The notes under the pieces: model-generated
Database searches by the model: none
Seen by the model: only the letters and a program-made list of their open reading frames with translations
What the model was told of the DNA's origin: nothing
In this document: positions 14,163 through 29,236 of the stretch, piece after piece
How the letters are laid out: each line of letters starts with the position of its first letter
How positions within the stretch are numbered: position 1 is the stretch's first letter
Assembly: GCA_963169885.1 (NCBI GenBank)
Contig: CAUJFR010000089.1
Span: 1 to 35,860 of the forward strand
Length of the DNA: 35,860 nucleotides
From: Bacteroidota bacterium
GTDB taxonomy: Bacteria; Bacteroidota; Bacteroidia; Chitinophagales; Chitinophagaceae
Direction of reading: 5' to 3'
Translations under genes and position numbers: made by a program

Positions 14163-14729
14163 TTACTCATCCCCCTTATCGTAAGCCGCCGTATAGTTCA
14201 CCTCAATATCATCCGCCACATTATTCTTCATTTTACCTTTGGGTTTTCCTACACCAAATGAGCCGATATCCTTCACGATGAATTTACAATGCACAGCAAC
14301 TTTGCCATCCTTAACCGTAATATGCGCTTTTTCCGTAACCGGCTTGGTTACGCCTTTGATGGTCAGGTCACCCGTAACTGTTGCCTCATACGTACCATCC
14401 TTTGAGAAAATAACCGCGGATAAGTTTGAAATTTTTCCTTTCAGACTGATTTTTGGAAACTGTTTTGAATCCATGAAATTGCTGTTGTTGAAATGCTCCT
14501 GCATCAGGGCTTTTTCAAACGAAAAACTTTGCACAGGAACTGAAATGGCAATATCACCTGTTGTGGAATTAATCACCCCGGTAACGGTATTGTTTGTGGC
14601 AGAAATATCTTCGGCTACCGTATGGGAATAAATAGTGGCCTGCCCCGTTCTGGCTATATACTTTGTTTGTGCGTTTACACCGAAACCGGCCATGACTGCA
14701 AGTGCAAAGGAGAGCATAATTTTTTTCAT
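14163..14729 (-). CDS. YceI-family periplasmic protein
   Basis: Start chosen at 14729, where an ATG opens a proper signal peptide (MKKIMLSFALAVMAGFGVNAQ); the longer frame would add 36 unlikely residues overlapping the upstream gene. The 188-residue protein then matches the YceI lipocalin-like family: TGQATIYSHT near the start, the HFNSNNFMDSKQFPKISLKG segment, and GDLTIKGVTKPV. YceI proteins bind isoprenoid-type lipids in a beta barrel, and in several bacteria they respond to stress. A copy of the shared promoter motif (14752-14778) lies with its -10 part 22 bases before the ATG, so it probably has its own sigma-factor-driven start although DUF6789 is upstream on the same strand. Confidence 0.9.
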   Translation of the reverse strand: MKKIMLSFALAVMAGFGVNAQTKYIARTGQATIYSHTVAEDISATNNTVTGVINSTTGDIAISVPVQSFSFEKALMQEHFNNSNFMDSKQFPKISLKGKISNLSAVIFSKDGTYEATVTGDLTIKGVTKPVTEKAHITVKDGKVAVHCKFIVKDIGSFGVGKPKGKMKNNVADDIEVNYTAAYDKGDE

Positions 14730-14751: not shown

Positions 14752-14778
14752 GACAGGCTGAAGGAAAAAACCTTACAA
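14752..14778 (-). promoter_or_regulatory. Candidate ECF sigma promoter for yceI-like gene
   Basis: On the minus strand: TTGTAAGGTT, 12 bases, CTGTC, ending 22 bases before the start codon. It fits the pattern and spacing of four other sites at 15259, 16414, 16526 and 19417. Confidence 0.75.
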
Positions 14779-14790
14779 CAGATCAGGTTT

Positions 14791-15243
14791 TTAATAGTGT
14801 TTTGACAATGAAGTAACTGGTTTAACAAAGAGGGCAATTACAATTCCAAAAATAAAATGACCCATTACACTTCCGATCATCATCAGCACCATTGAATCTT
14901 CCGGTTGTGGCATGGGGGCATCGCCAAAAATGGCACCCATGACCGGAAAGCCGATCTGTGCTGCAATAAAAGCCAGCAGCCCATAAATGGCACCCCGGGC
15001 CATTTTATTGACTATTTTCTTTAACCAGCTGTTGAAGAAAAAAACATAGCCGGCTGCGAATACAATACCGATCATAAAATGAATGACCCATCCTAAAGCG
15101 ACAGGCACACCCATCATTCCGGCAAGCATATCGGGGGGGCTCATTTTGGGCATACCCATTGCAACGCCCAGGAGCATTAAAAGGGTCATAACGATCGTGG
15201 CTATGATTCCACTGATAACTGATTGTTGAATTTTGATTTGCAT
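14791..15243 (-). CDS. DUF6789-like integral membrane protein
   Basis: The 150-residue protein has about four to five hydrophobic helices: residues 9-30 (GIIATIVMTLLMLLGVAMGM), 50-70, 83-105 and 120-142. The N-terminal G-x-x-A-T-x-x-M-T pattern and a G-W-x-x-H-F-x-I-G segment resemble DUF6789 inner-membrane proteins of unknown function. Only 66 bases separate it from the upstream thioredoxin gene, yet that gap carries a copy of the shared promoter motif (15259-15285), so it can be transcribed alone. It ends 61 bases before YceI. I cannot name a substrate or partner beyond the redox neighbours. Confidence 0.65.
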   Translation of the reverse strand: MQIKIQQSVISGIIATIVMTLLMLLGVAMGMPKMSPPDMLAGMMGVPVALGWVIHFMIGIVFAAGYVFFFNSWLKKIVNKMARGAIYGLLAFIAAQIGFPVMGAIFGDAPMPQPEDSMVLMMIGSVMGHFIFGIVIALFVKPVTSLSKHY

Positions 15244-15258
15244 AACTTTTTTTCTTAT

Positions 15259-15285
15259 GACGGGGGATTGTCAACTACCTGACAA
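15259..15285 (-). promoter_or_regulatory. Candidate ECF sigma promoter for DUF6789-like gene
   Basis: On the minus strand: TTGTCAGGTA, 12 bases, CCGTC, ending 15 bases before the ATG at 15243. The single -35 difference from the consensus is A to C at the fifth position. The short distance implies a very short leader. Confidence 0.7.
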
Positions 15286-15309
15286 GTAGTTGAAGTTATT
15301 TTCTTCCAC

Positions 15310-15915
15310 TTACTGATCCAGCTGTTTGACAATCTCCAGAAATTCTGCCTGTAAAGTAACCGTCTTGTCTTTAGCATACCAGCCATGCAGTTCTTTCTCA
15401 AAATCATCCCAACTTCTTCCAGCCGGGTTCTTTTTCCATTGCTTTAGCATTTCCTGCGCCGGTATTGGCCTGGGTCCCCAAACAAATGCTTCTTTGCTCA
15501 TCGTTTCATTTACCGCAATCAGTTTGGGAATAGCCCGGGCACCATTGGTCAGGTAATTATCCATCAAGGCGGGGTTTTCATTCCTGAGCAGGATAAATAG
15601 TTTTATTTTTTCCGGATTTAATTTCGCAATCTCTGCTATTACCGGAAGGTTTTGTGCACTATCGCCGCACCAGGCTTCTGTGAGTACTATCCAGGTATAC
15701 TGATGCTGAATGTTTTCAACCGCGTATTTCAGTAATGGATTAAGGACAATGGTTTTGTGGATCCGTTGGGTTCTGGACCAATTTAGTTTTGTGAATTCCA
15801 CTAAAGCATCCGAAGGAGGGGCGGAACTCGTCGTTCCTGTTTGAACCCACTCTTCAAATTTCTTCAGGTAGCTTTCATAGGTGTAAAGTCCCAATCCGGT
15901 TAATAATGTTGACAT
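15310..15915 (-). CDS. Thioredoxin-fold family protein with single-Cys WCGD site
   Basis: The 201-residue cytosolic protein (no signal peptide) carries a thioredoxin-fold core, with WIVLTEAWCGDSAQNLPVIAEIAK placing the active-site cysteine at residue 83. The motif is WCGDS rather than CxxC, so only one redox cysteine is present at the usual place. This is the norm in a Bacteroidota thioredoxin-like subfamily and suggests monothiol chemistry rather than classic disulfide reduction. GARAIPKLIAV provides the cis-proline region. It starts 9 bases after the stop of the CxxC thioredoxin upstream, so the pair forms one operon. Confidence 0.85.
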   Translation of the reverse strand: MSTLLTGLGLYTYESYLKKFEEWVQTGTTSSAPPSDALVEFTKLNWSRTQRIHKTIVLNPLLKYAVENIQHQYTWIVLTEAWCGDSAQNLPVIAEIAKLNPEKIKLFILLRNENPALMDNYLTNGARAIPKLIAVNETMSKEAFVWGPRPIPAQEMLKQWKKNPAGRSWDDFEKELHGWYAKDKTVTLQAEFLEIVKQLDQ

Positions 15916-15924
15916 ACTATATTA

Positions 15925-16398
15925 TTATTTCTTTTGTTTAAGACCCTGTTCGCCAAATTCTATCAGTTGTTTTGCATTCATGTATCCTTTTGTATAGGTT
16001 AGAATATTGCCGTCGGCATCGGTAATAATCAACGTTGGATATGCATTTACTGCAAACTTTTCGCCTAAGGCCGGGCCATCGCCTTTTTCCATATCAATGG
16101 CTACATTAATATAGTTGGCATTAAAAAATTCACCTGCTTCCTTATCAGGAAAGGTTTTTTTCTTCAATAATTTACAAGGGCCACACCAGGAAGCATACGC
16201 GTCAAGGAAAATTAATTTATGCTGCTTTTTAGCTTCTGCTAAAGCCTTATTCCAGTCGGCTTCTATAAACCGGATCCCTGGTTCTGCTTCAGGATTGCTG
16301 TTTGCTTCAATTTGCAGGTTCTTGTCTTTCGGAATAAAGGCAACTGCCAGGATAGCTAAAAAGGCCAGAAGGGCCGACAAAAGAATCTTGTTTCGCAT
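15925..16398 (-). CDS. Exported thioredoxin-like protein (WCGPCK)
   Basis: Start chosen at the ATG at 16398 (MRNKILLSALL...); a second ATG four codons upstream lies only 3 bases after the -10 part of the candidate promoter at 16414-16440, making it unlikely. The 157-residue protein has an N-terminal hydrophobic segment (residues 5-21) that is a signal peptide or anchor. A thioredoxin domain follows, with ASWCGPCK (Cys72 and Cys75), a KTFPDKEAGEFFN segment and the cis-proline NAYPTL. It should act as a periplasmic disulfide reductase. It leads a two-gene operon with the single-Cys family member. Confidence 0.88.
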   Translation of the reverse strand: MRNKILLSALLAFLAILAVAFIPKDKNLQIEANSNPEAEPGIRFIEADWNKALAEAKKQHKLIFLDAYASWCGPCKLLKKKTFPDKEAGEFFNANYINVAIDMEKGDGPALGEKFAVNAYPTLIITDADGNILTYTKGYMNAKQLIEFGEQGLKQKK

Positions 16399-16413
16399 AT
16401 TTTTTAGCATATA

Positions 16414-16440
16414 GACTGCCTGTTGTCCAATTCCTTACAA
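16414..16440 (-). promoter_or_regulatory. Candidate ECF sigma promoter for the thioredoxin operon
   Basis: On the minus strand: TTGTAAGGAA, 12 bases, CAGTC, ending 15 bases before the ATG at 16398. It is part of the five-site set. Confidence 0.72.
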
Positions 16441-16525
16441 TCTGAATTGTTAAAAACGGTTAAAAGTTTGCCAAGTCCATCCCATTCTTAATTTATTGAT
16501 AAACATCACATAAACCGATACCTTT

Positions 16526-16552
16526 TTGTAAGGTAGCTGACCATCATCCGTC
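16526..16552 (+). promoter_or_regulatory. Candidate ECF sigma promoter for the NRDE/ATP-grasp operon
   Basis: TTGTAAGGTA, 12 bases, CCGTC, ending 43 bases before the ATG at 16596. It matches the site at 19417-19443 at every non-spacer position and is divergent from the site at 16414-16440. Confidence 0.8.
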
Positions 16553-16595
16553 TTACCCGTAAATTCGCTTGAAGGGCCAGATAATCTGCTGTTAA

Positions 16596-17357
16596 ATGTG
16601 TACTGTAACATATATACCCACTAAAACCGGGGTTATTCTAACCTCAAACAGGGATGAGCATATCAGCCGGGGCATTGCCTTATATCCGGCCTTCTATCTA
16701 TCTAATAAAAAAAACCTGGCTTACCCAAAGGACCGAAAAGCCGGTGGTACCTGGTTTATCAGCAATGAATATGGAGATACCGGTGTGTTGTTAAACGGGG
16801 CTTTTGAAAAACATATTCCGAAGCCACCCTACCGCAAAAGCCGTGGGCTGGTATTACCGGAAATATTTCAATCAGATTCACCCTTTGCTGCATTCGAACA
16901 CTATAATTTATCCGGAATAGAAAACTTTACCATTATTCTTTGGGAACAAGACCTGTTAAGGGAAATAAAATGGGATGGCGAAAAACTGAAAGTCAAACAG
17001 CAGGATACCAGACAAGCCCATATCTGGTCTTCTGTTACACTTTATGATCAGGACATGATTACTGAGCGGCACAGTTGGTTCAACAACTGGTTAACAACCG
17101 TTACGGAAATTACCCAGGCAGATATCCTGAATTTTCATAGCAGCACACAGACTACCAACAAGGAATACGGGTTATTAATTTCCAGGGAAAACCAAATTTC
17201 CACCTCCAGTATTACCTCACTTTGTATTCAGCAGCAGCATGCGGAATTCCATCACATGGATATTATTCAAAATACAGCATCTACGCTTCAATATGAATTG
17301 AAACAGATTCAAATTGCTTACATCCAAAAAATTGATGAAGCTGCCATTGCTAAATAA
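16596..17357 (+). CDS. NRDE/TANGO2-family protein
   Basis: The 253-residue cytosolic protein begins MCTVTYIP and carries the signature TSNRDEHISR (about residues 16-25), which names the NRDE family to which eukaryotic TANGO2 belongs. AGGTWFISNEYGDTGVLLNGA is the second conserved block. The N-terminal Cys2 after Met suggests an Ntn-hydrolase-type fold. Animal TANGO2 has been linked to heme trafficking and lipid metabolism; the bacterial role is not settled. The ATP-grasp gene overlaps its last 23 bases in another frame, so the two are cotranscribed and probably translationally coupled. A strong candidate sigma-factor promoter is upstream. Confidence 0.85.
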   Translation: MCTVTYIPTKTGVILTSNRDEHISRGIALYPAFYLSNKKNLAYPKDRKAGGTWFISNEYGDTGVLLNGAFEKHIPKPPYRKSRGLVLPEIFQSDSPFAAFEHYNLSGIENFTIILWEQDLLREIKWDGEKLKVKQQDTRQAHIWSSVTLYDQDMITERHSWFNNWLTTVTEITQADILNFHSSTQTTNKEYGLLISRENQISTSSITSLCIQQQHAEFHHMDIIQNTASTLQYELKQIQIAYIQKIDEAAIAK

Positions 17358-18432
17358 AATTAAATCTCAGCCGTTTATCATCCGGTTAATGCATTGGGAA
17401 TACTGGCCGTTTCAACTGCTGTATTCGCCCATTTTTCCTGTATGGATATGGTATTGTATCAAAGCCCGTTCTTTTTTCTTTTTTGGGGCTTCTAATCCAA
17501 CTATTAAAAATGCAGGTTTATTAATGGAGCCTAAAAGTGAGATTGACGGACTTATCCCGGAGCGATATAAGCCCCTTACTTTATTTTTTCAAGCAGGTAC
17601 AGCGTTTGACAAAATAAGAGGAGTCATACGGATTAATAAGTTATCCTATCCGCTGGTGATTAAACCAGACATTGGTATGCAGGGCAAGGCGGTTGTAAAA
17701 GTGCATAGTGATTCGGAGTTACAAAATACCGTTATTAAGTTTACCGTAAATTTCATTATCCAGCCATTTATTCCTTACCCCAATGAAGTGGGAATCTTTT
17801 ATGTTCGCTATCCGGATGAGCAGCAGGGGAAAATTACCGGGATCGTTGAAAAGGAGTTTTTGTCTGTAACCGGTGATGGGATCAGCTCTATTGAAGCCTT
17901 ACTATACAGGAATCCGCGATTTATCCTTCAGATTCCCGCACTCAAAAAAATATTGGGGGAAAACCTGAACGATATTTTACAAAAAGGGGAGCAAAGAGTT
18001 CTGGTTCCTTATGGTAATCATGCAAGAGGATCCTTATTTTTAGACAGTACGTATAAAAATACTGCACAGATAGAGGCTGTAATCGATCAGGCCTGCCGAT
18101 CAATTGACGGATTTTATTATGGCCGGCTTGATATCCGGTTTAACAGTTTTGACGAATTGGGAAAAGATCAAAACTGGAGTATTATCGAGCTCAATGGTGC
18201 AGGCAGCGAACCTACGCATATATACGACCCCGGACATTCCCTTTTCTTTGCCTGGAAAGAAATTATCCGGCATTGGCGGATGCTTTACGAAGTCTCGATC
18301 CAAAATAAAAGAAAGGGCTTTCCTTATTTGAAATTTAAAGAGGGACTGGCAATGTTTAAAGAGAATAGTACCTATTTAAGGAAGTTAAATAAAATCAGTT
18401 TTAAGAAGCCTGAAAAGAATGATACGCTGTAG
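17335..18432 (+). CDS. ATP-grasp domain protein of unknown substrate
   Basis: Start taken at the ATG at 17335, which overlaps the preceding gene by 23 bases; an upstream TTG would add seven residues. The 365-residue protein has a hydrophobic N-terminal stretch (about 22-55), then an ATP-grasp core: YPLVIKPDIGMQGKAVVKV (ATP-binding Lys and flexible loop), FIIQPFIPYPNEVGIFYVRYP, and IIELNGAGSEPTHIYDP, with the Glu-x-Asn metal ligands. The fold joins an acid to an amine or thiol via an acyl phosphate, as in D-Ala-D-Ala and glutamate ligases. The substrate cannot be read from sequence. A perfect hairpin follows the stop. Confidence 0.75.
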   Translation: MKLPLLNKIKSQPFIIRLMHWEYWPFQLLYSPIFPVWIWYCIKARSFFFFGASNPTIKNAGLLMEPKSEIDGLIPERYKPLTLFFQAGTAFDKIRGVIRINKLSYPLVIKPDIGMQGKAVVKVHSDSELQNTVIKFTVNFIIQPFIPYPNEVGIFYVRYPDEQQGKITGIVEKEFLSVTGDGISSIEALLYRNPRFILQIPALKKILGENLNDILQKGEQRVLVPYGNHARGSLFLDSTYKNTAQIEAVIDQACRSIDGFYYGRLDIRFNSFDELGKDQNWSIIELNGAGSEPTHIYDPGHSLFFAWKEIIRHWRMLYEVSIQNKRKGFPYLKFKEGLAMFKENSTYLRKLNKISFKKPEKNDTL

Positions 18433-18436
18433 CAAA

Positions 18437-18468
18437 AATGCCACCTGTTCATAATTACAGGTGGCATT
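18437..18468. terminator. Bidirectional terminator hairpin
   Basis: AATGCCACCTGT and ACAGGTGGCATT form a perfect 12-bp stem around an 8-base loop, between the convergent ATP-grasp and anti-sigma genes. Only short T or A runs flank it. Confidence 0.75.
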
Positions 18469-18491
18469 AGAACCAGGAAAAAATATAAAAA

Positions 18492-18752
18492 TCAGGATGA
18501 GTACTCCCCGAGTATTTTTTCAATTTTGTCCTTAGCTATAGCAGGTAAATTATCCGCTGCATGTACATGCCGGCTTTCGTTTCCAATATGAGTTGTTTGT
18601 TTTTCAAATTTCTTACAAAGGGAACACATGGATGTGTGTACCGACAGCTTCATATTATCTATTAAACCAAGCTTCCCCTCCTCTTTTTTCGCCATCAGGA
18701 AGGTAGCTTCCTTACAATTTACCATGAAATACTTCATCATTAATTTTTTCAT
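18492..18752 (-). CDS. Soluble zinc-binding (ZAS-type) anti-sigma factor
   Basis: The 86-residue protein has the zinc anti-sigma pattern: VNCKEATFLM (Cys13) followed by H39-x3-C43-x2-C46 in SVHTSMCSLCKKF. In ZAS anti-sigma factors these residues bind zinc and, in redox-sensing members such as RsrA and ChrR, let the protein release its sigma factor when thiols are oxidised or zinc is lost. There is no membrane helix, so it should act in the cytosol. It begins 5 bases after the stop of the sigma gene on the same strand, the standard sigma/anti-sigma arrangement. The function is inferred from motif and context; the homology is short. Confidence 0.8.
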   Translation of the reverse strand: MKKLMMKYFMVNCKEATFLMAKKEEGKLGLIDNMKLSVHTSMCSLCKKFEKQTTHIGNESRHVHAADNLPAIAKDKIEKILGEYSS

Positions 18753-18757
18753 ACGCC

Positions 18758-19342
18758 TCAGTTTTTTAACCAGTATTTTTCCACGCAGTCACGCATTTGA
18801 AGCCTGGCCCTGTGTATTAATACCCAATAGTTAGACGAACTTATTTTTAATACCTTACAGATTTCATCGGAATCCAGGTCTTCCATATATTTTAAGGTAA
18901 ACACCGCTTGCTGCAGAGCCTTCAGATGGTCTTTACACCAGTTAATGATTTTCTGAATTTCTTTTCGTTCAACCGGGTTATCAGCGGCTTGCCAGTCTTT
19001 GGGCATCCTGTTTTCGGTCCAGCTGCCTTCCTCATTAAACCATTCGTCGTCCACCCGCTTTAAATCAGGCATGGTCATGACCGCCTGCTCAGTGGATTTC
19101 TTCCGGTAAAAGTCAATTATTTTGTTTTTCAGAATGGTAAACAACCAGTTCTTTTCAGAAGCCTCCCCTTTATAGCCCTCCAACCCCTTTAAAGCGGATA
19201 AAAAGGTATCCTGCACCAAATCCTCTGCGATCACATTGTCGTTTACCCTTGGTAAAGCATATTGATAAAGTAAATCGCCGTACAGCTCCAGCCATTTTTG
19301 AGGATTCGCCTTATTGGCCTGTTTTTCCATGATCAGCGGCAT
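18758..19342 (-). CDS. ECF-type RNA polymerase sigma factor
   Basis: Start placed at the ATG at 19342 (MPLIMEKQANK...); an ATG four codons later is equally possible, while the longer frame begins with TTG. The 194-residue protein has sigma region 2 (NVIAEDLVQDTFLSALKGLEGYKG...NWLFTILKNKIIDFYRKK) and a region 4 helix-turn-helix (AVFTLKYMEDLDSDEICKVLKISSSNYWVLIHRARLQMRDC). The unusual linker between them contains WFNEEGSW. It is followed by a ZAS anti-sigma gene and is divergent from the OB-fold operon. Five copies of a shared -35/-10-like motif lie in the surrounding 5 kb, with a CGTC-type -10 as in many ECF promoters. None was found ahead of the sigma gene itself. Confidence 0.92.
   Translation of the reverse strand: MPLIMEKQANKANPQKWLELYGDLLYQYALPRVNDNVIAEDLVQDTFLSALKGLEGYKGEASEKNWLFTILKNKIIDFYRKKSTEQAVMTMPDLKRVDDEWFNEEGSWTENRMPKDWQAADNPVERKEIQKIINWCKDHLKALQQAVFTLKYMEDLDSDEICKVLKISSSNYWVLIHRARLQMRDCVEKYWLKN
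18834..18860 (-). promoter_or_regulatory. Possible internal promoter inside the sigma gene
   Basis: On the minus strand: CTGTAAGGTA, 12 bases, TCGTC, two mismatches from the five-site consensus with identical spacing. It lies in the region 4 coding sequence, 81 bases before the anti-sigma ATG. It could give extra anti-sigma transcription, or be chance. Confidence 0.35.
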
Positions 19343-19416
19343 TGATTTTTGTAAATATAGTAAAATGAATGAAGGCAGATTCTCCAAAGAGCAACAGAAA
19401 TATTTTAACAGGTGGT

Positions 19417-19443
19417 TTGTAAGGTATTGTTCTGTGACCCGTC
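19417..19443 (+). promoter_or_regulatory. Candidate ECF sigma promoter for the OB-fold operon
   Basis: TTGTAAGGTA, 12 bases, CCGTC, ending 82 bases before the ATG at 19526. It lies in the gap divergent from the sigma gene and is identical at both boxes to the site at 16526. Confidence 0.8.
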
Positions 19444-19525: not shown

Positions 19526-19996
19526 ATGAACAAGAAAACATTAAAACGAATCGCAGCGGGGATACTGGTTATCATAATTATAGCAGTCAGCATAGGCGCC
19601 TATATGTGGTTTAAGCCCCACCGGGATGTGCAGGCCACAAAGGCATTCGCTGAAATGAAAACCAGCGAACTGCTGCAGGAGTTTTCAGCGGACGCCAATG
19701 CCGCCAATGCAAAATACCTGTCCCGTGATGGTAATTCCAAAGTACTGGTGGTAGAAGGCCGGGTAAGTAAAATATCCACGAATCAAAGTGGAGAAGCAGT
19801 GATCGTTTTAAAGGACAAGGGCGCTAAAGTGGGTGTCAGCGGCACGTTTACCCAAAAAACAAGTCCGAATACAGCCGGCATAAAGGAAGGAGATATTATA
19901 AAAATCAAAGGCGCCATTACAACCGGTAACAGCTATGATGCTGACCTTGATTTATATGAGCATGCCGTGCTGGTACAATGTGATATTATTAAATAA
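19526..19996 (+). CDS. Membrane-anchored OB-fold (tRNA_anti-like) protein
   Basis: Start at the ATG at 19526 (MNKKTLKRIAAGILVI...). The 156-residue protein has one N-terminal membrane helix (about residues 9-27) and a periplasmic domain. LVVEGRVSKISTNQSGEAVIVLKD...GVSGTFT and GDIIKIKGAITTG give the five-strand OB-fold pattern of the tRNA_anti-like family, seen in Bacteroidota as small uncharacterised envelope proteins. It is first in a four-gene operon: its TAA overlaps the ATG of the DUF6132 gene by one base. A strong candidate ECF promoter precedes it. Confidence 0.75.
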   Translation: MNKKTLKRIAAGILVIIIIAVSIGAYMWFKPHRDVQATKAFAEMKTSELLQEFSADANAANAKYLSRDGNSKVLVVEGRVSKISTNQSGEAVIVLKDKGAKVGVSGTFTQKTSPNTAGIKEGDIIKIKGAITTGNSYDADLDLYEHAVLVQCDIIK

Positions 19997-20203: not shown

Positions 20204-20824
20204 ATGAGGATAAAAGTAATCCTGTTTGCCCTTTCAGCAACAATAGCTGTTTCCCAATCTTTACGGGCACAGGAGAAAGGCAAATTATTTTTTACCACCG
20301 CCTTTGGTGTCGTCAATACGCAAGGGAAGTTTTCAAATGCGTTTAAGTCCACCCTGGCCTTTAATTCCGGCCTGGAAATGGCATTAAAGAAAAACTGGTT
20401 TGGACAACTTGTTTTTGATTTCAATGCATTAAAATATGACCAGCAGGTCAGGGATGCCAATTCGCCGTTTTTGTTTCAGAATACCAATAGTTCACTTTTA
20501 CTGCTTGGGTTAAACGGAGGTAAAAATATTTATTTCAACAACCATAACTGGTTTACCTCGGTATATGCGGGTGGCGGCTTTTTGAATATTGGTGAGCCGA
20601 GGGTTACCGTGAATTCCAATACCGGTATTGCCAAACAGGATGTGGCAAGGGTAAGTAATGTATTTGCCAGAACCGGCCTGAGACTGGCCTATACTACCCA
20701 ATCAAAATTCTTTCAAACACTCTATCTTGACGGTTCCTTTTGGGCTTCACCAGCCAGGGTCCAGGACGGTCAGGTGAAGGGCTTTTCTTTTTACATCGGC
20801 ACCCGGTTTGGGACCGTACAATAA
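20204..20824 (+). CDS. Predicted outer-membrane beta-barrel protein
   Basis: The 206-residue product has a signal peptide (MRIKVILFALSATIAVSQSLRAQ). Alternating hydrophobic/polar strands with aromatic girdles follow, for example NWFTSVYAGGGFLNIG and GLRLAYTTQSKFFQTLYLDGSFW. It ends in a strand whose last aromatic residue is in GFSFYIGTRFGTVQ, consistent with a small outer-membrane barrel. I cannot assign a named family. Third gene in the operon that starts with the OB-fold protein; it begins one base after the DUF6132 stop. Confidence 0.6.
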   Translation: MRIKVILFALSATIAVSQSLRAQEKGKLFFTTAFGVVNTQGKFSNAFKSTLAFNSGLEMALKKNWFGQLVFDFNALKYDQQVRDANSPFLFQNTNSSLLLLGLNGGKNIYFNNHNWFTSVYAGGGFLNIGEPRVTVNSNTGIAKQDVARVSNVFARTGLRLAYTTQSKFFQTLYLDGSFWASPARVQDGQVKGFSFYIGTRFGTVQ

Positions 20825-20852: not shown

Positions 20853-21326
20853 ATGAGACGGATTTTATCGCTTTCAATAGCATCAGCATCTGCAATGATT
20901 GCTTTATTAGTACTTACCGTAATCCTGTTTACAGCCTGTAATGGTCCTTTATATGACAAATCGCTGCTGGAATCGAAAGACGGAGTGCATTTCGCAGCCT
21001 CTTCATTAGCGGAGGTAAAGGCGATCAGCAAAGCAGAAGGCAAGCCTGTTTTTATCCTGGCGCATGCCAGTTATTGCGCGGTTTGTAAAAAAATGCTGAC
21101 CACTGTTTTTCCGCAAAAGGAAACCGGTGATCTGTTTAATAATAAATTTATTAATGCGCAGGTGGATATTGAAACGGAAGAGGGTAAACAAATTGCAAAA
21201 GAGTACGAAATCAACAGCACACCCACCTTACTATTTCTGGCACCGGATGGGAAGGTCATCCGTAAAACAAGTGGTTTTCAAAGTAAGGAGGAGTTGTTGG
21301 CACTGGTAAAGGGGTTGGTGGAATAA
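20853..21326 (+). CDS. Thioredoxin-like lipoprotein (CAVC)
   Basis: The 157-residue product has a lipoprotein-type signal ending in LFTAC, with Cys29 as the likely lipidation site. A thioredoxin-like domain follows: ILAHASYCAVCKKM (redox pair Cys75/Cys78), TVFPQKETGDLFNNKFINAQVDIE, and the cis-proline NSTPTL. It should sit in the periplasm, tethered to a membrane, reducing or exchanging disulfides. Last gene of the operon, 28 bases after the barrel gene. It is the third thioredoxin-fold protein in 5.5 kb, which supports a thiol-stress role for the cluster. Confidence 0.85.
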   Translation: MRRILSLSIASASAMIALLVLTVILFTACNGPLYDKSLLESKDGVHFAASSLAEVKAISKAEGKPVFILAHASYCAVCKKMLTTVFPQKETGDLFNNKFINAQVDIETEEGKQIAKEYEINSTPTLLFLAPDGKVIRKTSGFQSKEELLALVKGLVE

Positions 21327-22449: not shown

Positions 22450-23409
22450 CTAAAGACCCAGTACTTTAGCCCGTTGCTGAATCAATTGGGCGAATTGCTC
22501 CTGCAATGGTTGATCGATAAAACTTTTGGGAATGAACTGTAACCAGCTTTCAATGACATTGGAAAACTTACTGTACATATTCCGGATAGCTTTTTCTTCC
22601 AATGCGTTGAAAGAAGAAAAGACGGTGTCAAAATCCTTTCGCTGAATTTTTCTTTTCTTCCCATTAAAATTCAACGCCAGCTCTTCATTATCTCCCTGTA
22701 CCACTAACGCAGAAGCAACCATATCGTAGGCCGGCGCTAAAACGAAACCAGTACCCGGTTGTTCGATCAATGAAAAGTTTTTCAGGTGCATGTCGGCATT
22801 ACCTGTGAGATAAGAGAACAACACCTGTTCAAAAAAATTAGTCAGATCCAATACCGGGTTAGCAGCATATTTCAGGATGGCTTTTCCTATATGCTCATAG
22901 GATCCTTTATACTTGTCTTCTGTAAGCCGTTCCGTTAACTGGCACATATCTTCCATGTGCAGTTTGTTTTTTTTACTGCGGTCGATGCGCCTGGTAATGT
23001 AGGCAAGGTTGCCACTCTGCATTCGTATAAGTGAATGGGGTACTGTTGCAATTCCAGCCAGGGATGCAAGATGCATTGTCAGATCTTCCACTTCGGGCAA
23101 CTGCGGATATTGTTTGGTGGCCGGTTTTAAAATATAGGCCCCCCATAGACCGACAATGGTAAACCGTTGTGGTGTTTTTTGTCCTTCTTTAAGCCTCACT
23201 GATTTTTCAATGTCCAGGGATAGCTTTGGTTGTACGCCGGTAACAGCCACCTGGCTTTTGATCACCTGCTCACCCAGTTGCAGCATTTGATCTTCGGTAT
23301 AAGGCAGAACCGGTGGCTCTGGCTTACCGAAAATCTTCCGGCTACAAGCAGGATGAAAATCAATCATGCCTGTTTCCAGTTTTTTATAGCAATATAGGCA
23401 GTTCATCAT
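22450..23409 (-). CDS. HipA-like Ser/Thr kinase toxin (HipT-like, zinc knuckle)
   Basis: The 319-residue protein begins with a zinc-knuckle-like segment (Cys4-x2-Cys7...His19-x2-Cys22), usual in Bacteroidota HipA homologues and absent from E. coli HipA. The kinase core follows: VTGVQPK (residues 56-62), ATP-binding Lys95 in YILKP, catalytic GNADMHLKN (203-211, Asp206) and metal ligand Asp229 in PAYDM. The HipA N-terminal subdomain is missing and encoded separately just upstream. E. coli HipA phosphorylates glutamyl-tRNA synthetase and HipT tryptophanyl-tRNA synthetase; the target here is unknown. The segment aligned with the autophosphorylated serine(s) reads Ala55-Val-Thr57. Its ATG overlaps the upstream stop by four bases. 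Confidence 0.88.
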   Translation of the reverse strand: MMNCLYCYKKLETGMIDFHPACSRKIFGKPEPPVLPYTEDQMLQLGEQVIKSQVAVTGVQPKLSLDIEKSVRLKEGQKTPQRFTIVGLWGAYILKPATKQYPQLPEVEDLTMHLASLAGIATVPHSLIRMQSGNLAYITRRIDRSKKNKLHMEDMCQLTERLTEDKYKGSYEHIGKAILKYAANPVLDLTNFFEQVLFSYLTGNADMHLKNFSLIEQPGTGFVLAPAYDMVASALVVQGDNEELALNFNGKKRKIQRKDFDTVFSSFNALEEKAIRNMYSKFSNVIESWLQFIPKSFIDQPLQEQFAQLIQQRAKVLGL

Positions 23410-23732
23410 TTTTCTTCTTTTGCTTCAACAATACTTACTGCCCCAATACAGTCTTTACAGCATGCTAATAGCAATCCCATCCTGTCGCGCTCGTTCATCT
23501 TCCAGTTTTTTTCGGCTACTTCCAATAGCCAGCCTTCCGGAATCAATCCGTCAAAAAATGGGATCATCGTTTTGCTGTTGTACGGCTTATCAGATAAAGG
23601 AAGGGTAAGGCTTACCGCTTTTGCATATTCCGATATAAGGTAAGTAGTATCATACCAGAAGCTGTACCCATCTTCCGTTTCGGAAAGATAGCCTGCTGTT
23701 TGGCCATACATTAATACATTAGCTTTCCTCAT
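23406..23732 (-). CDS. HipS-like protein (free HipA N-terminal domain)
   Basis: The 108-residue protein corresponds to the N-terminal subdomain of HipA: VLMYGQTAGYLSETEDGYSFWYD...YNSKTMIPFFDGLIPEGWLLE, with the LxLPLSxxPY and FFxGLxPEG motifs. In the E. coli HipBST system the free domain (HipS) is the antitoxin that neutralises the kinase HipT, while HipB represses and boosts. By architecture the same may hold here, but that is inference. The gene overlaps HipB by 14 bases and the kinase by 4, so all three are translationally coupled. Confidence 0.85.
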   Translation of the reverse strand: MRKANVLMYGQTAGYLSETEDGYSFWYDTTYLISEYAKAVSLTLPLSDKPYNSKTMIPFFDGLIPEGWLLEVAEKNWKMNERDRMGLLLACCKDCIGAVSIVEAKEEK

Positions 23733-23955
23733 GGAATAGTGTTTTTCGGTTCATCGCTACAGGTCCCAGTTCATGACCAAACAGTTTGAGTACCTGATTT
23801 ACTTTATCCATTTTCAGGGTGGCTTTTCCCTGCTCCATGTCTCTTACAAAACGCAAGCCTACACCCGCCTTGTCGGCCAGATCAGGTTGAGTAAGATTGG
23901 CCAGTTTACGTTTTTCCTTTATAAACCGTGAGAGTGTGATGTTATTTTTTTCCAT
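23719..23955 (-). CDS. hipB: HipB-like Xre-family repressor
   Basis: The 78-residue helix-turn-helix protein has LTQPDLADKAGVGLRFVRDMEQGKATLKMDKVNQVLKLFG (about residues 20-60), the Xre/HipB fold. First gene of the three-gene operon. Its ATG lies 4 bases downstream of a palindromic TACCC-N4-GGGTA operator, the first of three such sites at 40-bp steps, so it very likely represses its own operon. The short C-terminal tail (HELGPVAMNRKTLFHEES) overlaps the HipS-like gene. Confidence 0.88.
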   Translation of the reverse strand: MEKNNITLSRFIKEKRKLANLTQPDLADKAGVGLRFVRDMEQGKATLKMDKVNQVLKLFGHELGPVAMNRKTLFHEES

Positions 23956-24720: not shown

Positions 24721-27700
24721 TTACAACATAAACCGTCCGGTATAAAGCGTTTTTCCTTCCTTACTTACCCTGATCAGGTATATATTATTGGCCGATCCGG
24801 ATTTTACCTGGATGGTCTGCTGCCCGGCGACAACTGTTTGTTGTTGCAACTGGCGACCCAACGCATCGTAAATAATGACTTCTGCTTTGCCACTGATCGT
24901 TGCAGGTACAATTAATCCAACTAATCCACTGCCTGGCATCACGCGCATTTCAAATCCACCGGTACCGGTGTAGTTAACGGCAATCACCGTACTATAGCGG
25001 ATGCGTCCGTCGATGTCCACTTGTTTTAAGCGGTAATACGCAAGTCCGCTGAGCGGATTGATATCGGTAAACTGATAATCATTGCGGATCGATGGATTCG
25101 CGGCGGCGGCTACCTCTCCGATTGTCGTGTATTGCATGCCGTTGGCGCTGCGTTCGATTTCATAATGATCATTATTGTTTTCTGCAGCAGTCGACCAGTT
25201 AAGCAATACAGTTTTTCCCTGCCCGGTACCGGTAAAGGATAACCAGGTAACGGGAAGAATAAAGTTGGATTCTCCAATGGCAAAGGGGGAAAAGCTGCCG
25301 CTGTAGCCGGTATAACTGAGCGTGCCGGCCACTATATCAAATACAGGCGAACCGGAAAGGATATCCCAGCTGCTGCCATTGTAATGCATCAGTTTGGGAG
25401 CGACAAAGGTACCCGTGACATTATTCGCCGGTACCCAGTTAAAATCAAGGTCTACCGTTCCTGCACCGGTACTGGCACCCGTGTTGCCAATATTCCAGGT
25501 GAGGTCTACTCTCGGAGCTCCGAGGGTTACTGAACCGGTGGCGGCACCATTATAGTATACACCATCTGATACCGTGGCATAAAACTCATCGGAGGACCCG
25601 GTGTTGTTGGTAATGGTGACGGGATTATAATAGGATGTACCGATGGGAAATGTTTTGGACGCACTATTGGCAAGGGTCATCTTTAATTTACCAGTGCCGT
25701 TACTGCGTATATACTTGCCCGTGGCAGGTATAATACTTGTTCCACTGAAGATGAAATCATTGGCCCCCAGTATAATATTCTCATTGAGCGCCAGGTTGCC
25801 GGCTGTGATCAGCTGCAGGGGATCATTGAGGGTGAGCGATGCACCATGAGTAATCGTACCGGCTGCACTGTTGCCGATCCGGATTTCAATGAACCCATCG
25901 GTAAACTTATTAGCGAAATAATCCGCTGTAATGGCTAATGTGCCTGTACCGCCTGCGAGACCGATGCTGGTACCATTGGTCTGAGGTTCAATGATGAGAT
26001 TACCAGCAGAGCTGATGGTTTTGGAAGCAGCAATGCTGAGGCTGTTGGTATAAAGACTGATATTGCCCGAAGCGGTGGAAGCCAGGTTCTGATTGAGTGT
26101 AATGGCTGAACCATAAATACTCGCTGCACCTGCCACAGAGAAAGCGATATCTGAAGTAACTGTTTTTGTATTGGTGGATTTACCGATGCGTAAGGAGGTA
26201 ATGGTTGAACGCACTGTATACTCATCCGGAATGCTAAGGTTTGTTGCCCAGTCTGCACCATAGGGCTCGAGGATCAATGCACCCGCACCACCTAAAACCG
26301 TTACAGCGGTGGTGGCCACCGCATTTGTTTGCAGGGTGCCGAATTTCAGGGTTATATCGCCCGTATTGGCATCCCCGATAATAAGACTGTTCACCGCATT
26401 ATTCGCTCTTAGTCCCATGCTGAAATCATCACCGGTATTTCCGCTGGTACCACTGAGACTGATAGCCCCGCCATCGGTGGTAATGCTGCTGTAGGAGTTG
26501 ATAGCGGTGTTTTGTACTACCCAGCCCATCGCTTCTCCGGAGATTGCGGCGGAAACAGTGGCATCACCCAGACTGGTAATATTACCCGTAGTGGTGGAGA
26601 TGCTGATATCATCGCCGTAATAATTTACGAGGGCCAGGCCATGGGCCCATATATAGCTATTACTGACTGCCGAGATTCCTTCCAGGTAGATATTACCCGA
26701 AGTGGAAGAGAGCGTTACATTTCCGGTGGCCGCTACAGCGCCGCTCTCGGTACCGATGAACAGCCCTGCACCCACATTCACATCATTCCGCGTGGTACCA
26801 TATAGTGAAAGATCGCCGGCTGCGGATTGAATGGTACTGTTTACGACTGTTACGCCAAAATCATTATCCCCGTTACCTGTGTCATTGCTTTCGCCTTTCA
26901 TACGGATGCTGCCACCATTGGTATTAATGGTAATGCCTTTGACCTGTACGCCTTGTTTGTTGATCGTAACGGATTGTGCATAGCCGGTGGGTACGGTGAG
27001 ACTGTTTTGTGTTTCGCTGCTGCTGCCGCCGCCTACCCACAAATGACCGCCGCTGGTAGTGATGTTTGAAAAGAGTTCAATACGGCCACCGCCGCTGCCA
27101 TCTGCATCGGCCCAGTACACTACATCTCCCCCATTGCTGGTAAGGGCATAGCCAGCTGTATGAAGAATGTCGCCGCTGGCTTTAAGGTATACATCGCCGT
27201 TAGTTCCGCCGGTACTGGTATTGATCGTACCACCGAGGGTGATCGTGGTACCATAAAAAGATACGGGCCCGGCCACGGTGAGTGACTGGTCGTTGATTAC
27301 AGTATTTGTATTGCCATTTTTCCCAATGGTAATACCACCGATTCCGTTGGCATCCTGATCAAAGAAGAACCAGGAAGAGGAAACGCCCTGGAAGCCGGCA
27401 TCGGAAGGTTCGATTACCACCGCACCGGTACCATTGAAATAAGGTTTATCCGTACTGGCTGCGGTTGACCAGTTCATGGTTTCGGTACGCAGGGTGGTGG
27501 TGCCGCTTCCTGCATTGAACGTGAGGAAGTCGATATCCAGCTGGCCATTGCCACTGGCATCCGAATCCGCATATACATTGATGTTACCATTAGCAGAAAC
27601 CAGACTCCGTCTCGTGGTACCCACAGTAGCAAAAGAACCGCGGGCATTGATATTAATATTGCCCGCTCCGGTGGAAGTCAGTCCAATGCCATTGGCCAGA

Positions 27701-29160
27701 TTAAAATCGCTGGCATAAGCGGTAATATTACCGGCGGATGTAAGGGCGGTATTGAGGGTGATCGTATAATTTTCAGCAGACTCACCCAGTACAATACTGC
27801 TGAAGTTGCTGCCAAAAGCCACATTACCTGCCCAGCTCAGGGTACCGCTGTAAGAAGCGGTATAGGCCTCCATGGTTAGTGAGCCGGTGCTGTTGATATT
27901 TACATTTTTGGTAGCTGTATTGCTGAAGGTGTATTGATCATCGGCTTGTAGCAGGATATTGGCCGTGGAAGCAGTAACTGAAGGAGTAACGCCCTGAATG
28001 GCGGTGGCATCTTTCCGGTTACCGATATACAGATCACCATACAGGTAAAGAGAGGCGTTCAGGGCTCCGTCGCCCTTGAGGGTAATGGTACCGGCCTGTG
28101 ATAATAATTGGGTGATGATATTGGTGTTGGTTATACCAAACCAGAGACCAGATGAGTTGGTGCTTACCCCTTCGATGGTCATACCACCACCGGTTGCGGC
28201 CGTGGATTCAAAGAGGATATTACCGTTGGCATTATTGGAGAGCCAGAAGCCGGCATAGCCGGATGCGGAGGTGGTGCCTTTCAGGTCTAAGGCCGGGGTG
28301 CTGGTGGAAGCGGAGCTGATTGCAACGCTGGGGGCGGCTCCATAGGTCAGTTCCACACCATGTCCCGTGCTTGATTTACCATACATGGTGATCTTGCCGG
28401 TGCCGGAAACGATCTTCAGGTTGCCCTGTGAACCAATTCCCGGATAACTGTTATTGTTGCTGCTGGCACCCCGCAGGATGATTTCACCACCGCTGCTCAG
28501 CAGGGAAACAACGGTACCTGTTCCTGAGAGTGGACCCAGGGTCAGTCCGCCTACGGTATTGGCGCCATAGGTAACGGAGTTAGAGCCGTTCCAGGCAAAT
28601 CCATCGGGGATGCCATCGGCGTTGGTGCCGCCATTGGTACCGTCATCGGGTCCGCCGGCCATAATGATCCGGCCGCCGTTGGTGGAGATGGTTGCCCCTG
28701 TATTGATAAAAATAAAATCGTCAATGGTACCGCCCTGACTGTTATCGGAATCGGCCCAGAGGATCAGGTCCAGTGTGTTGGAGGAGGAGCTGATGGTAAT
28801 ATTCGTGGCGACCTTGATATTGCCTATATCTTTTATAGTAAACGAGGCATTGCCGCCACCGCTTTTAGTAATGTTTGAATTGATGGTAGTACCCACGCTG
28901 CTGTTAGTCACGATTACGCTGGTACCTGCGTTGAGGTAGCCTTCGATCACGCTGGTGTTTACGTTAGCCGCACCCGTTACTGAAATTGTAATCGGATTCG
29001 TACCCGACGTACTCCAGTTGGTACCCGATGTCCCGGTTTGTCCGCCGGAGGACAGGGTCAGGTTTTGCGCATGCGTTACTAAAGAAAAAAGAAGCAGTGT
29101 GGCTAAGTAAATAGCTTTTTGACGAACGGGGACAAGAAGCCCCTTAAGGATGTTGTACAT
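24721..29160 (-). CDS. Giant T9SS-sorted beta-repeat surface protein
   Basis: Start taken at the ATG at 29160 rather than an upstream TTG. The 1479-residue product has a long positively charged signal peptide (VRQKAIYLATLLLFSLVTHAQ). About 1,150 residues rich in Thr, Ser, Gly, Asn and Ala follow, with recurrent GNITL, GTITL and SGGDV-type short strands that predict a filamentous-haemagglutinin-like beta helix. The C-terminus has an FN3-like module (LPVTWLSFTGTGQGKTVLLNW...YYRLKQVDIDGRIRYS) and a type A T9SS sorting domain (KAEVIIYDALGRQLQQQ...GRFML). It is probably a surface adhesin or matrix protein; no catalytic domain is visible. The gene is divergent from an AraC regulator. Confidence 0.85.
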   Translation of the reverse strand: MYNILKGLLVPVRQKAIYLATLLLFSLVTHAQNLTLSSGGQTGTSGTNWSTSGTNPITISVTGAANVNTSVIEGYLNAGTSVIVTNSSVGTTINSNITKSGGGNASFTIKDIGNIKVATNITISSSSNTLDLILWADSDNSQGGTIDDFIFINTGATISTNGGRIIMAGGPDDGTNGGTNADGIPDGFAWNGSNSVTYGANTVGGLTLGPLSGTGTVVSLLSSGGEIILRGASSNNNSYPGIGSQGNLKIVSGTGKITMYGKSSTGHGVELTYGAAPSVAISSASTSTPALDLKGTTSASGYAGFWLSNNANGNILFESTAATGGGMTIEGVSTNSSGLWFGITNTNIITQLLSQAGTITLKGDGALNASLYLYGDLYIGNRKDATAIQGVTPSVTASTANILLQADDQYTFSNTATKNVNINSTGSLTMEAYTASYSGTLSWAGNVAFGSNFSSIVLGESAENYTITLNTALTSAGNITAYASDFNLANGIGLTSTGAGNININARGSFATVGTTRRSLVSANGNINVYADSDASGNGQLDIDFLTFNAGSGTTTLRTETMNWSTAASTDKPYFNGTGAVVIEPSDAGFQGVSSSWFFFDQDANGIGGITIGKNGNTNTVINDQSLTVAGPVSFYGTTITLGGTINTSTGGTNGDVYLKASGDILHTAGYALTSNGGDVVYWADADGSGGGRIELFSNITTSGGHLWVGGGSSSETQNSLTVPTGYAQSVTINKQGVQVKGITINTNGGSIRMKGESNDTGNGDNDFGVTVVNSTIQSAAGDLSLYGTTRNDVNVGAGLFIGTESGAVAATGNVTLSSTSGNIYLEGISAVSNSYIWAHGLALVNYYGDDISISTTTGNITSLGDATVSAAISGEAMGWVVQNTAINSYSSITTDGGAISLSGTSGNTGDDFSMGLRANNAVNSLIIGDANTGDITLKFGTLQTNAVATTAVTVLGGAGALILEPYGADWATNLSIPDEYTVRSTITSLRIGKSTNTKTVTSDIAFSVAGAASIYGSAITLNQNLASTASGNISLYTNSLSIAASKTISSAGNLIIEPQTNGTSIGLAGGTGTLAITADYFANKFTDGFIEIRIGNSAAGTITHGASLTLNDPLQLITAGNLALNENIILGANDFIFSGTSIIPATGKYIRSNGTGKLKMTLANSASKTFPIGTSYYNPVTITNNTGSSDEFYATVSDGVYYNGAATGSVTLGAPRVDLTWNIGNTGASTGAGTVDLDFNWVPANNVTGTFVAPKLMHYNGSSWDILSGSPVFDIVAGTLSYTGYSGSFSPFAIGESNFILPVTWLSFTGTGQGKTVLLNWSTAAENNNDHYEIERSANGMQYTTIGEVAAAANPSIRNDYQFTDINPLSGLAYYRLKQVDIDGRIRYSTVIAVNYTGTGGFEMRVMPGSGLVGLIVPATISGKAEVIIYDALGRQLQQQTVVAGQQTIQVKSGSANNIYLIRVSKEGKTLYTGRFML

Positions 29161-29236
29161 AAGATTGGTGGATAAAGGATTGAACAATTATATTACTAAT
29201 GTATAATCAGGCATATAAATAAAAAAGTAATTAAGA

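Follow-up and report, generated by a model that had tools for sequence, protein, structure and literature searches.

We examined a 35,860-nucleotide stretch of contig CAUJFR010000089.1 (assembly GCA_963169885.1) from a member of the Chitinophagaceae (Bacteroidota), hereafter the window, which carries a gene for an extracytoplasmic function (ECF) sigma factor followed by one for a small zinc-type anti-sigma factor. Judging from the sequence comparisons presented below, this pair very probably belongs to the same kind as the MseR and HrsE systems and controls genes for methionine and thiol repair, with a promoter inside the sigma gene that feeds the anti-sigma brake only. In the circuit that we propose, the sigma factor would recognise a motif close to TTGTMAGGWW-N13-CG(T/A)CTA, which takes the form TTGTMAGGWW-N12-CNGTC in the window, and would fire five transcription units surrounding its own gene. 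The sigma factor would itself be produced from a housekeeping promoter and held by the zinc anti-sigma factor until oxidant damage to the latter releases it; released sigma would then drive the repair genes and, from within the sigma gene, the synthesis of more anti-sigma without extra sigma. Such a loop would be purely negative, fast to switch on and self-limiting without positive autoregulation. The reading of the motif by this sigma factor, the intragenic transcription start, the housekeeping promoter and the redox trigger are the elements of this scheme that we infer.

Promoter-like sites around a sigma/anti-sigma pair

A first-pass annotation of the window had described five copies of a two-box motif with a 12-base spacer, each 15-82 bases before a gene start and pointing at it, and this description was confirmed throughout: the five sites lie at the positions and on the strands given here, the spacer is exactly 12 bases in each, all point at gene starts and the distance from the GTC of the second box to the start codon is 15-82 bases. 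Each was recovered both with the exact motif and with a matrix built from other genomes. Together with a further site inside the sigma gene they are:

14752-14778, minus strand: promoter site before the YceI gene, GTC 22 bases from the ATG at 14729
15259-15285, minus strand: promoter site before the DUF6789 gene, GTC 15 bases from the ATG at 15243
16414-16440, minus strand: promoter site before the two-thioredoxin unit, GTC 15 bases from the ATG at 16398 (another in-frame ATG, at 16410, lies closer to the site, at 3 bases)
16526-16552, plus strand: promoter site before the NRDE/TANGO2 gene, GTC 43 bases from the ATG at 16596
18834-18860, minus strand: intragenic promoter-like site inside the sigma gene, CTGTAAGGTATTAAAAATAAGTTCGTC, then TAA; matrix score 22.5
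19417-19443, plus strand: promoter site before the OB-fold operon, divergent from the sigma gene, GTC 82 bases from the ATG at 19526

The genes concerned are listed below. Pfam matches bear out most of the identities first proposed for them, although the barrel and ATP-grasp proteins have no match over the Pfam cut-off.

14163-14729, minus strand: YceI family protein (Pfam PF04264)
14791-15243, minus strand: DUF6789 protein (Pfam PF20587)
15310-15915, minus strand: Thioredoxin_9 protein (Pfam PF14595), downstream of the WCGPC thioredoxin-like gene
15925-16398, minus strand: thioredoxin-like protein with WCGPC (Pfam PF13098/PF13899)
16596-17357, plus strand: TANGO2/NRDE family protein (Pfam PF05742); its homologue at locus L110 is also preceded by the motif
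17335-18432, plus strand: ATP-grasp-like protein following TANGO2, start uncertain (ATG at 17335), with sub-cut-off Pfam and NCBIfam ATP-grasp matches
18492-18752, minus strand: zinc-type anti-sigma factor, 86 residues, soluble, with C13 and H39-x3-C43-x2-C46
18758-19330, minus strand: ECF sigma factor, ATG at 19330 (alternative ATG at 19342), with Pfam Sigma70_r2 and Sigma70_r4_2; TIGR02943 is the best match
19526-19996, plus strand: OB-fold (tRNA_anti-like) protein (Pfam PF12869), with motif-bearing homologues at L092, L174, L175 (by Pfam) and L188
19996-20202, plus strand: DUF6132 protein (Pfam PF19628)
20204-20824, plus strand: "barrel" protein, labelled so in the first-pass annotation; no Pfam match
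20853-21326, plus strand: thioredoxin-like lipoprotein (Pfam PF13098; "lipoprotein" is likewise the earlier label)

The host genome is a draft of 3,635,397 bases (3.64 Mb) in 494 contigs and is 84% complete. The exact pattern TTGTNAGGWW-N12-CNGTC, which was derived from the same five window sites, has five matches in it, all of them the window sites, against none for the reversed pattern, and the largest count in 100 dinucleotide-preserving shuffles was zero. A motif common across the genome had been named at the outset as evidence against a regulon, and these counts show no such abundance. When two mismatches were allowed, matches in the same genome stayed at background level (100+116 vs 145+126 in the control), so the signal is carried by the exact motif. 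Since the pattern was built on the five window sites, independent support has to come from other genomes: with a matrix made from 15 non-sigma sites, all from other genomes, the six top-scoring sites of the window are the five above and the intragenic one (scores 17.7-24.4, next 13.7). Chance was ruled out as the origin of the five-site motif by the shuffles, by its genome-wide exclusivity and by the fixed spacing in relatives described below.

Comparisons with relatives were drawn over 101 loci (L numbers; 1.54 Mb in total), namely the window, 20 family regions and 80 loci from a sigma alignment, these last being the best 80 of at least 483 candidates; near relatives were kept, unweighted. 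The anti-sigma protein is present in 39 of 147 family genomes, the window's own included, and the regions come from 20 of the 38 other genomes with an anti-sigma match. Both sigma and anti-sigma were found by tblastn in 19 of these regions, L104 giving sigma only, and there a looser scan revealed an anti-sigma-type frame after sigma. Among the nearest regions, five (L090 to L094) have some of YceI, DinB, OB-fold, TANGO2 and ATP-grasp as neighbours.

The window sigma factor carries sigma regions 2 and 4 and scores 160.4 bits (160.8 in a second search) against TIGR02943, its best-matching named family, where the cut-off is 162.2, so that it is not a filed member; its nearest named locus is from Ferruginibacter (Chitinophagaceae, Bacteroidota). 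The soluble protein with Cys13 and His39-x3-Cys43-x2-Cys46 reported to follow it is indeed the 86-residue product, which by this pattern and its place beside a sigma gene is predicted to be an anti-sigma factor of the zinc anti-sigma (ZAS) type. It reaches 48.5 bits against NF052368 antisigmaE (cut-off 50). C13, H39, C43, C46 and Q52 are invariant across 24 aligned homologues, a set chosen by its Cys/His pattern, which makes the invariance of the first four partly a matter of construction, and an H-x3-C-x2-C frame closely follows sigma in 95 of the 101 loci. A structure model (predicted local distance difference test, pLDDT, 89) has as its top structural matches RsiW, ChrR and RslA, all three of them anti-sigma factors, with weak E-values of 0.5 or more. 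By sequence, the search for a solved relative gave two matches at E >0.1, neither of them convincing.

A site embedded in the sigma coding sequence

The intragenic site (18831-18860 with the TAA) coincides with the codons I-C-K-V-L-K-I-S-S-S-N of region 4.2, those of the -35-binding helix-turn-helix, and is directed at the anti-sigma gene. It ranks third in the window with the matrix from other genomes only. The five sites first listed are real, but this sixth and most conserved one was missed because it lies two mismatches from the pattern then in use. Most of the 20 family regions have the same motif within their sigma genes. Its GTC precedes the anti-sigma ATG by 81 bases in the window. This is also the median for the 71 loci of intragenic type in which the anti-sigma gene was located (range 45-306, with 62 of them at 55-95).

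Codon usage in the 101 aligned sigma genes is biased at the intragenic site well beyond synonymous chance. Third-position bias in the gene is strongest at residues 157, 151 and 150, which supply the motif's G, G and T; their divergences from the codon usage of the set are 1.50, 0.72 and 0.27, respectively, against 0.19 for the next column. The codon of S157 ends in G in 85 of 101 loci where 19 are expected, that of K151 in G in 64 (24 expected) and that of C150 in T in 91 (64 expected); the G at the end of codon 157 goes with Ser, Pro, Ala or Thr there in many genomes. An intragenic score of at least 12 was observed in 78 of 101 loci and one of at least 18 in 48, compared with 11.0 and 1.4 expected when synonymous codons are drawn from each locus's own usage. 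These comparisons led us to reject the match as an artefact of codon bias.

A wider form of that objection would accept the five intergenic sites as real promoters and take the intragenic match for a by-product of the region 4.2 protein sequence and codon bias combined. Conserved helix-turn-helix residues (Cys, Lys/Gln, Ser-Asn) do fix part of the motif, and synonymous shuffling still leaves 11 of 101 loci at a score of 12 or more, but this falls well short of the 78 observed; moreover, the third positions of TGT, AAG and xCG are strongly preferred even though S, P, A and T all occur at residue 157, and the codons vary where the motif has been relocated. We consider this explanation improbable. 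The sequence evidence is strong for a putative sigma-dependent promoter of the SigH/RshA type at the intragenic site, one that would feed only the anti-sigma gene, and we infer that transcription starts there.

Further motif-like sequences occur near the brake gene. In the window there is a weak one within the anti-sigma gene (18688-18717, minus strand; codons N-C-K-E-A-T; score 10.6), and L097 and L110 have scores of 14.3 and 12.7 near the anti-sigma gene start.

Recurrence and relocation of the motif in relatives

The two boxes recur at one spacing. Across the 101 loci, sigma genes included, TGTMAGG-N15-CGTC has 56 matches, compared with 0-1 at each other spacing from 9 to 19 and one for the reversed control at equal spacing. 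Outside sigma genes, TGTMAGG-N15-NGTC has 21 matches (five of them the window's), compared with 0-4 at other spacings; for TGTMAGGWW-N13-NNNCTA the count is 41, and no other spacer from 8 to 19 gives more than four. Before the TA, 29 of these 41 read CGAC and six CGTC (35 of 41 together), and seven of the 41 sit directly upstream of the sigma gene. The window sites keep GTMAGGWW and CNGTC, mostly without the following TA. Gene calls in these spacing counts, and in the list of non-sigma sites discussed below, follow simple longest-open-reading-frame rules. The motif thus recurs beside related sigma genes, where its absence would have spoken against the regulon first proposed. That regulon had been called local, which holds in its own genome, but other contigs of relatives carry the motif too, ahead of msr and thioredoxin genes.

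A strict form of the motif was scanned through 396 genomes of the class and gave 32 matches in 25 genomes, with four for the reversed control (our own tally from the table). Among the 30 matches read, the other two being left unread, 10 are the intragenic site ahead of an anti-sigma gene and five precede MsrA/MsrB genes, three of the five checked with Pfam; L207 and L211 precede genes without an evident link (arginase-like and AlgH-like proteins) and L216 has no gene. The sigma factor is present in 21 of the 25 strict-motif genomes and in four of 25 comparison genomes, which were hand-picked from neighbouring rows and are not a random sample. For genomes with a strict match outside the sigma gene, a count that omits six genomes with an intragenic match only, the figures are 15 of 19 vs 4 of 25 (Fisher p 4e-5). 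The exact 27-mer has matches in 32 of the 147 family genomes, mostly single and at a level like that of the reversed control; it was noticed beside sigma loci in three (G059, G114 and G136). The letters of the -10 box at the intragenic site show no strict covariation with those of neighbouring promoters, CGTC-type loci having CGAC neighbours as well. At L221 (genome G539, same genus) CAAC is found both at the intragenic site and at the site before an HvfA-like peptide gene; the sigma family is patchy in that genus, with three of 10 genomes positive at E 1e-20, one of them weakly. The recurrence of the motif with fixed spacing, before the same gene families and in sigma-bearing genomes, supports the view that the five window sites are regulon promoters.

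Another ECF sigma factor might read the motif, or it might be a repressor or activator site, with the sigma pair a mere neighbour. Such an arrangement would accommodate the four of 25 strict-motif genomes without this sigma at E 1e-30, but it sits poorly with the two-box form, the fixed spacing, the clustering round the sigma gene and the association with sigma presence, and also with the likeness to the consensus for Neisseria sigma-E, which has an anti-sigma factor of the same kind (PMC2893595, excerpted); we think it hardly probable. In one of the four, G386 (L193, L215), the motif precedes MsrA and a thioredoxin-like gene, and a diverged sigma factor may read the same promoter code there.

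Returning to the sigma-dependent promoter as our preferred reading, we located the site in each of the 101 loci at a score threshold of 12. It was intragenic alone in 74, intragenic with a further site near the anti-sigma start in two, intragenic and upstream in one, upstream alone in eight, after sigma alone in three and in none of these places in 13. Two loci counted among those without a site, L096 and L102, have weak upstream sites (8.5 and 11.8). The five window sites contributed to the matrix behind the site-location, threshold-12 and housekeeping-box results, and both the scan of the window and the codon test were repeated with a matrix free of them. In a quickly searched tree that kept the columns of region 4.2, loci of the intragenic type occur throughout the remaining Bacteroidota rows, and the other architectures group. 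In a supported clade of eight Sphingobacteriaceae, seven members have the motif upstream, 85-123 bases before the aligned sigma start, and the eighth, L139, scores 11.8, just below threshold; all eight are below threshold at the intragenic position. The remaining upstream-alone locus, L171 (Planctomycetota), lies outside this clade and has its site 315 bases off. L104, L182 and L185 form a separate clade with the motif after sigma: in L104 the relocated site lies between the sigma and anti-sigma genes, and in L182 and L185 it precedes another gene, no anti-sigma gene having been found after sigma. The motif therefore tends to be confined to a single place per locus. In all eight Sphingobacteriaceae, residue 151 is Ala, Val, Thr or Ser. 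A single overlapping code may exist across much of the phylum, in which the demand for a promoter fixes both silent positions and helix-turn-helix amino acids and the protein is freed to change wherever the promoter has moved, but we advance this as a tentative idea, more likely wrong than right.

In the window itself, the 350 bases before the aligned sigma start contain no site (best score -3.4). The Bacteroidota housekeeping box TAnnTTTG occurs within 120 bases upstream of sigma in 32 of 75 intragenic-type loci, compared with a mean of 6.0 and a maximum of 15 in 200 shuffles that preserve base composition only, and in two of nine upstream-type loci against 0.7. The housekeeping box in relatives and the lack of a motif upstream of the window sigma gene together suggest that sigma is made from a housekeeping promoter and anti-sigma from a sigma-dependent one, which would leave negative feedback only; that the window gene has such a housekeeping promoter is a guess. 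It is very improbable that the codons are instead kept at the RNA level, by translational coupling of sigma and anti-sigma or by RNA structure, since, although the two genes nearly abut (a median of 5.5 bases apart in 92 loci), the letters under constraint are those of the motif seen before unlinked genes, and their distance from the anti-sigma start is large (median 81 bases; 55-95 in 62 of 71 loci).

Regulon content and known sigma/anti-sigma systems

The 101 loci contain 63 sites outside sigma genes, seven of which precede sigma itself. Downstream gene names were assigned in part by family search or similarity to window proteins and the rest by eye. In these sites and the strict-motif matches of the class-wide scan taken together, genes for MsrA, MsrB or their fusion follow the motif in eight loci (L106, L121, L152, L200, L210, L212, L215 and L218), the strict-motif site lying 150 bases away in L200 and 175 bases away, inside another frame, in L212. 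Families shared with the window are the thioredoxin-like proteins (L175, L204, L208), DUF6789 (L158, L165, L182, L185, L187, L209), the OB-fold proteins (L092, L174, L175, L188), YceI (L090) and TANGO2 (L110). The motif also precedes DoxX (L173, L195), EGKCG/HvfA-like peptides (L112, L150, L159, L167, L203, L221), DUF1223 (L119, L121, L124, L131, L138, L139), AhpC/TSA (L119, L125, L192), YHS proteins (L094, L143, L201) and, in Pedobacter and Mucilaginibacter, methionine- and lysine-rich MXKDX-like repeat proteins (L121, L124, L131, L138, L139). The match of the L221 peptide to Buf_EGKCG NF050188 is weak (20.1 bits, cut-off 95). The motif-driven DUF6789 proteins of L158, L165, L182 and L185 are methionine-rich (20-27 Met in 141-153 residues). 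The MXKDX-like proteins have 12-15 Met and 21-25 Lys in 87-92 residues, that of L121 falling below the family cut-off; we presume that these small proteins could act as methionine oxidant sinks like MrpX. From this content, the regulon would seem to serve in defence against oxidants that attack methionine and thiols outside the cytoplasm, whether hypochlorite-like or metal-driven, an assignment that we favour with some reserve.

The first-pass annotation had proposed a regulon of the sigma/ZAS pair with thiol or electrophile sensing and had pointed to RsrA and ChrR. The regulon is supported, but those are not the closest analogies: the pair appears to resemble Neisseria sigma-E/MseR and Haemophilus RpoE2/HrsE more closely, on account of the promoter consensus, the small soluble anti-sigma factor and the content of the relatives' regulon (MsrA/MsrB, DoxX, EGKCG). 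The excerpted descriptions of the Neisseria meningitidis system (PMC2893595, PMC3240639) give a small soluble anti-sigma factor with the Cys, His-x3-Cys-x2-Cys pattern and a deduced consensus of GTMAGBWTT at -35, a spacer of 12-13 and CGTCTAAH at -10 (PMC2893595); the window agrees in its -35 box and spacing, and its relatives have CGAC or CGTC before TA. Sigma-E/MseR controls msrA/msrB, a main target, and its own operon (PMC2893595), and in relatives of the window the motif stands before msr genes. In contrast to the window, where sigma has no upstream site, the Neisseria sigma operon is autoregulated from upstream, and no intragenic promoter is seen in those excerpts; the likeness is drawn from the published descriptions. 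Haemophilus influenzae RpoE2/HrsE, in its excerpted description (PMC7907618), likewise has a small cytoplasmic anti-sigma factor, controls msrAB and a DoxX-like gene and exerts very limited control of its own promoter; its hypochlorite link is experimental, and the likeness here is one of anti-sigma type, targets and feedback. The EGKCG-type peptides and DoxX driven by the motif in relatives recall the HvfA/Buf_EGKCG metallophore peptides (PMC12452194, excerpted), although such peptides were not seen in the window. In the Bacteroidota, the regulon includes Msr, DoxX and EGKCG peptides, to which thioredoxins and methionine-rich proteins are added. Cupriavidus RpoQ/gig was not counted as the same system, its anti-sigma factor being predicted to be membrane-bound (PMC10304878, excerpted), and no link was drawn to the Flavobacterium psychrophilum ECF motif, which has a CGT box and type IX secretion targets (PMC9723704, excerpted).

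For the circuit itself, the relevant experimental precedent is Corynebacterium glutamicum SigH/RshA, in which sigH has housekeeping promoters and a SigH-controlled rshA promoter, which its authors place within the sigH coding region, serves only the anti-sigma gene (excerpts of PMC3489674). Unlike the present case, that promoter is of the GGAAT/GTT type and concerns one organism, and no codon constraint appears in the excerpts. It was the only intragenic anti-sigma promoter found in the open-licence papers searched, which is not proof that others are unpublished. The kind of circuit is therefore already known; for a version in another phylum that is conserved widely, constrained in its codons and relocated clade by clade, that literature gave no example, as far as the excerpts extend.

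Several observations weigh against the scheme as a whole. Both sigma and anti-sigma fall narrowly below their family cut-offs, the strict class-wide motif has no match in the window's own genome, where the -10 extensions of the sites differ, and four of the 25 strict-motif genomes, G386 included, lack the sigma factor at E 1e-30. Thirteen of 101 loci stay below threshold at all three places, L170 shows that the architectures can coexist, having both an intragenic and an upstream site, and each relocated architecture corresponds to about one clade, that is, to one or two events. The window sigma gene has no exact TAnnTTTG within 150 bases upstream, the nearest sequence being TATATTT. Many non-sigma sites precede genes without an evident link (e.g. 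L111, L149, L168, L172, L183 and L184). The Msr link is absent in the window's own genome, in which, at 84% completeness, MsrA has no site (best locus score 8.5) and no MsrB was found. Finally, Neisseria sigma-E is unresponsive to peroxide, diamide and singlet oxygen (PMC2893595, excerpted).

With this motif the promoters of an ECF stress regulon of the Bacteroidota can be read, in a code that resembles the published one of Neisseria, and the targets become listable in many genomes; the sigma gene adds a widespread example of a regulatory site lying within coding sequence, with a measurable codon constraint. Searches for sigma promoters limited to regions upstream of operons would miss such a site. 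The natural series of loci with the motif upstream of, inside or after sigma makes positive and purely negative feedback open to comparative test.

Elsewhere in the window, positions 22450-23955 on the minus strand hold three consecutive genes, the first for a small protein that looks helix-turn-helix-like by eye and the others, according to Pfam, for a Couple_hipA domain protein and a HipA_C kinase; we take the trio to resemble a split HipA (HipBST-like) toxin-antitoxin operon. A secreted-looking, repetitive protein of 1488 residues is encoded at 24721-29187 on the minus strand.

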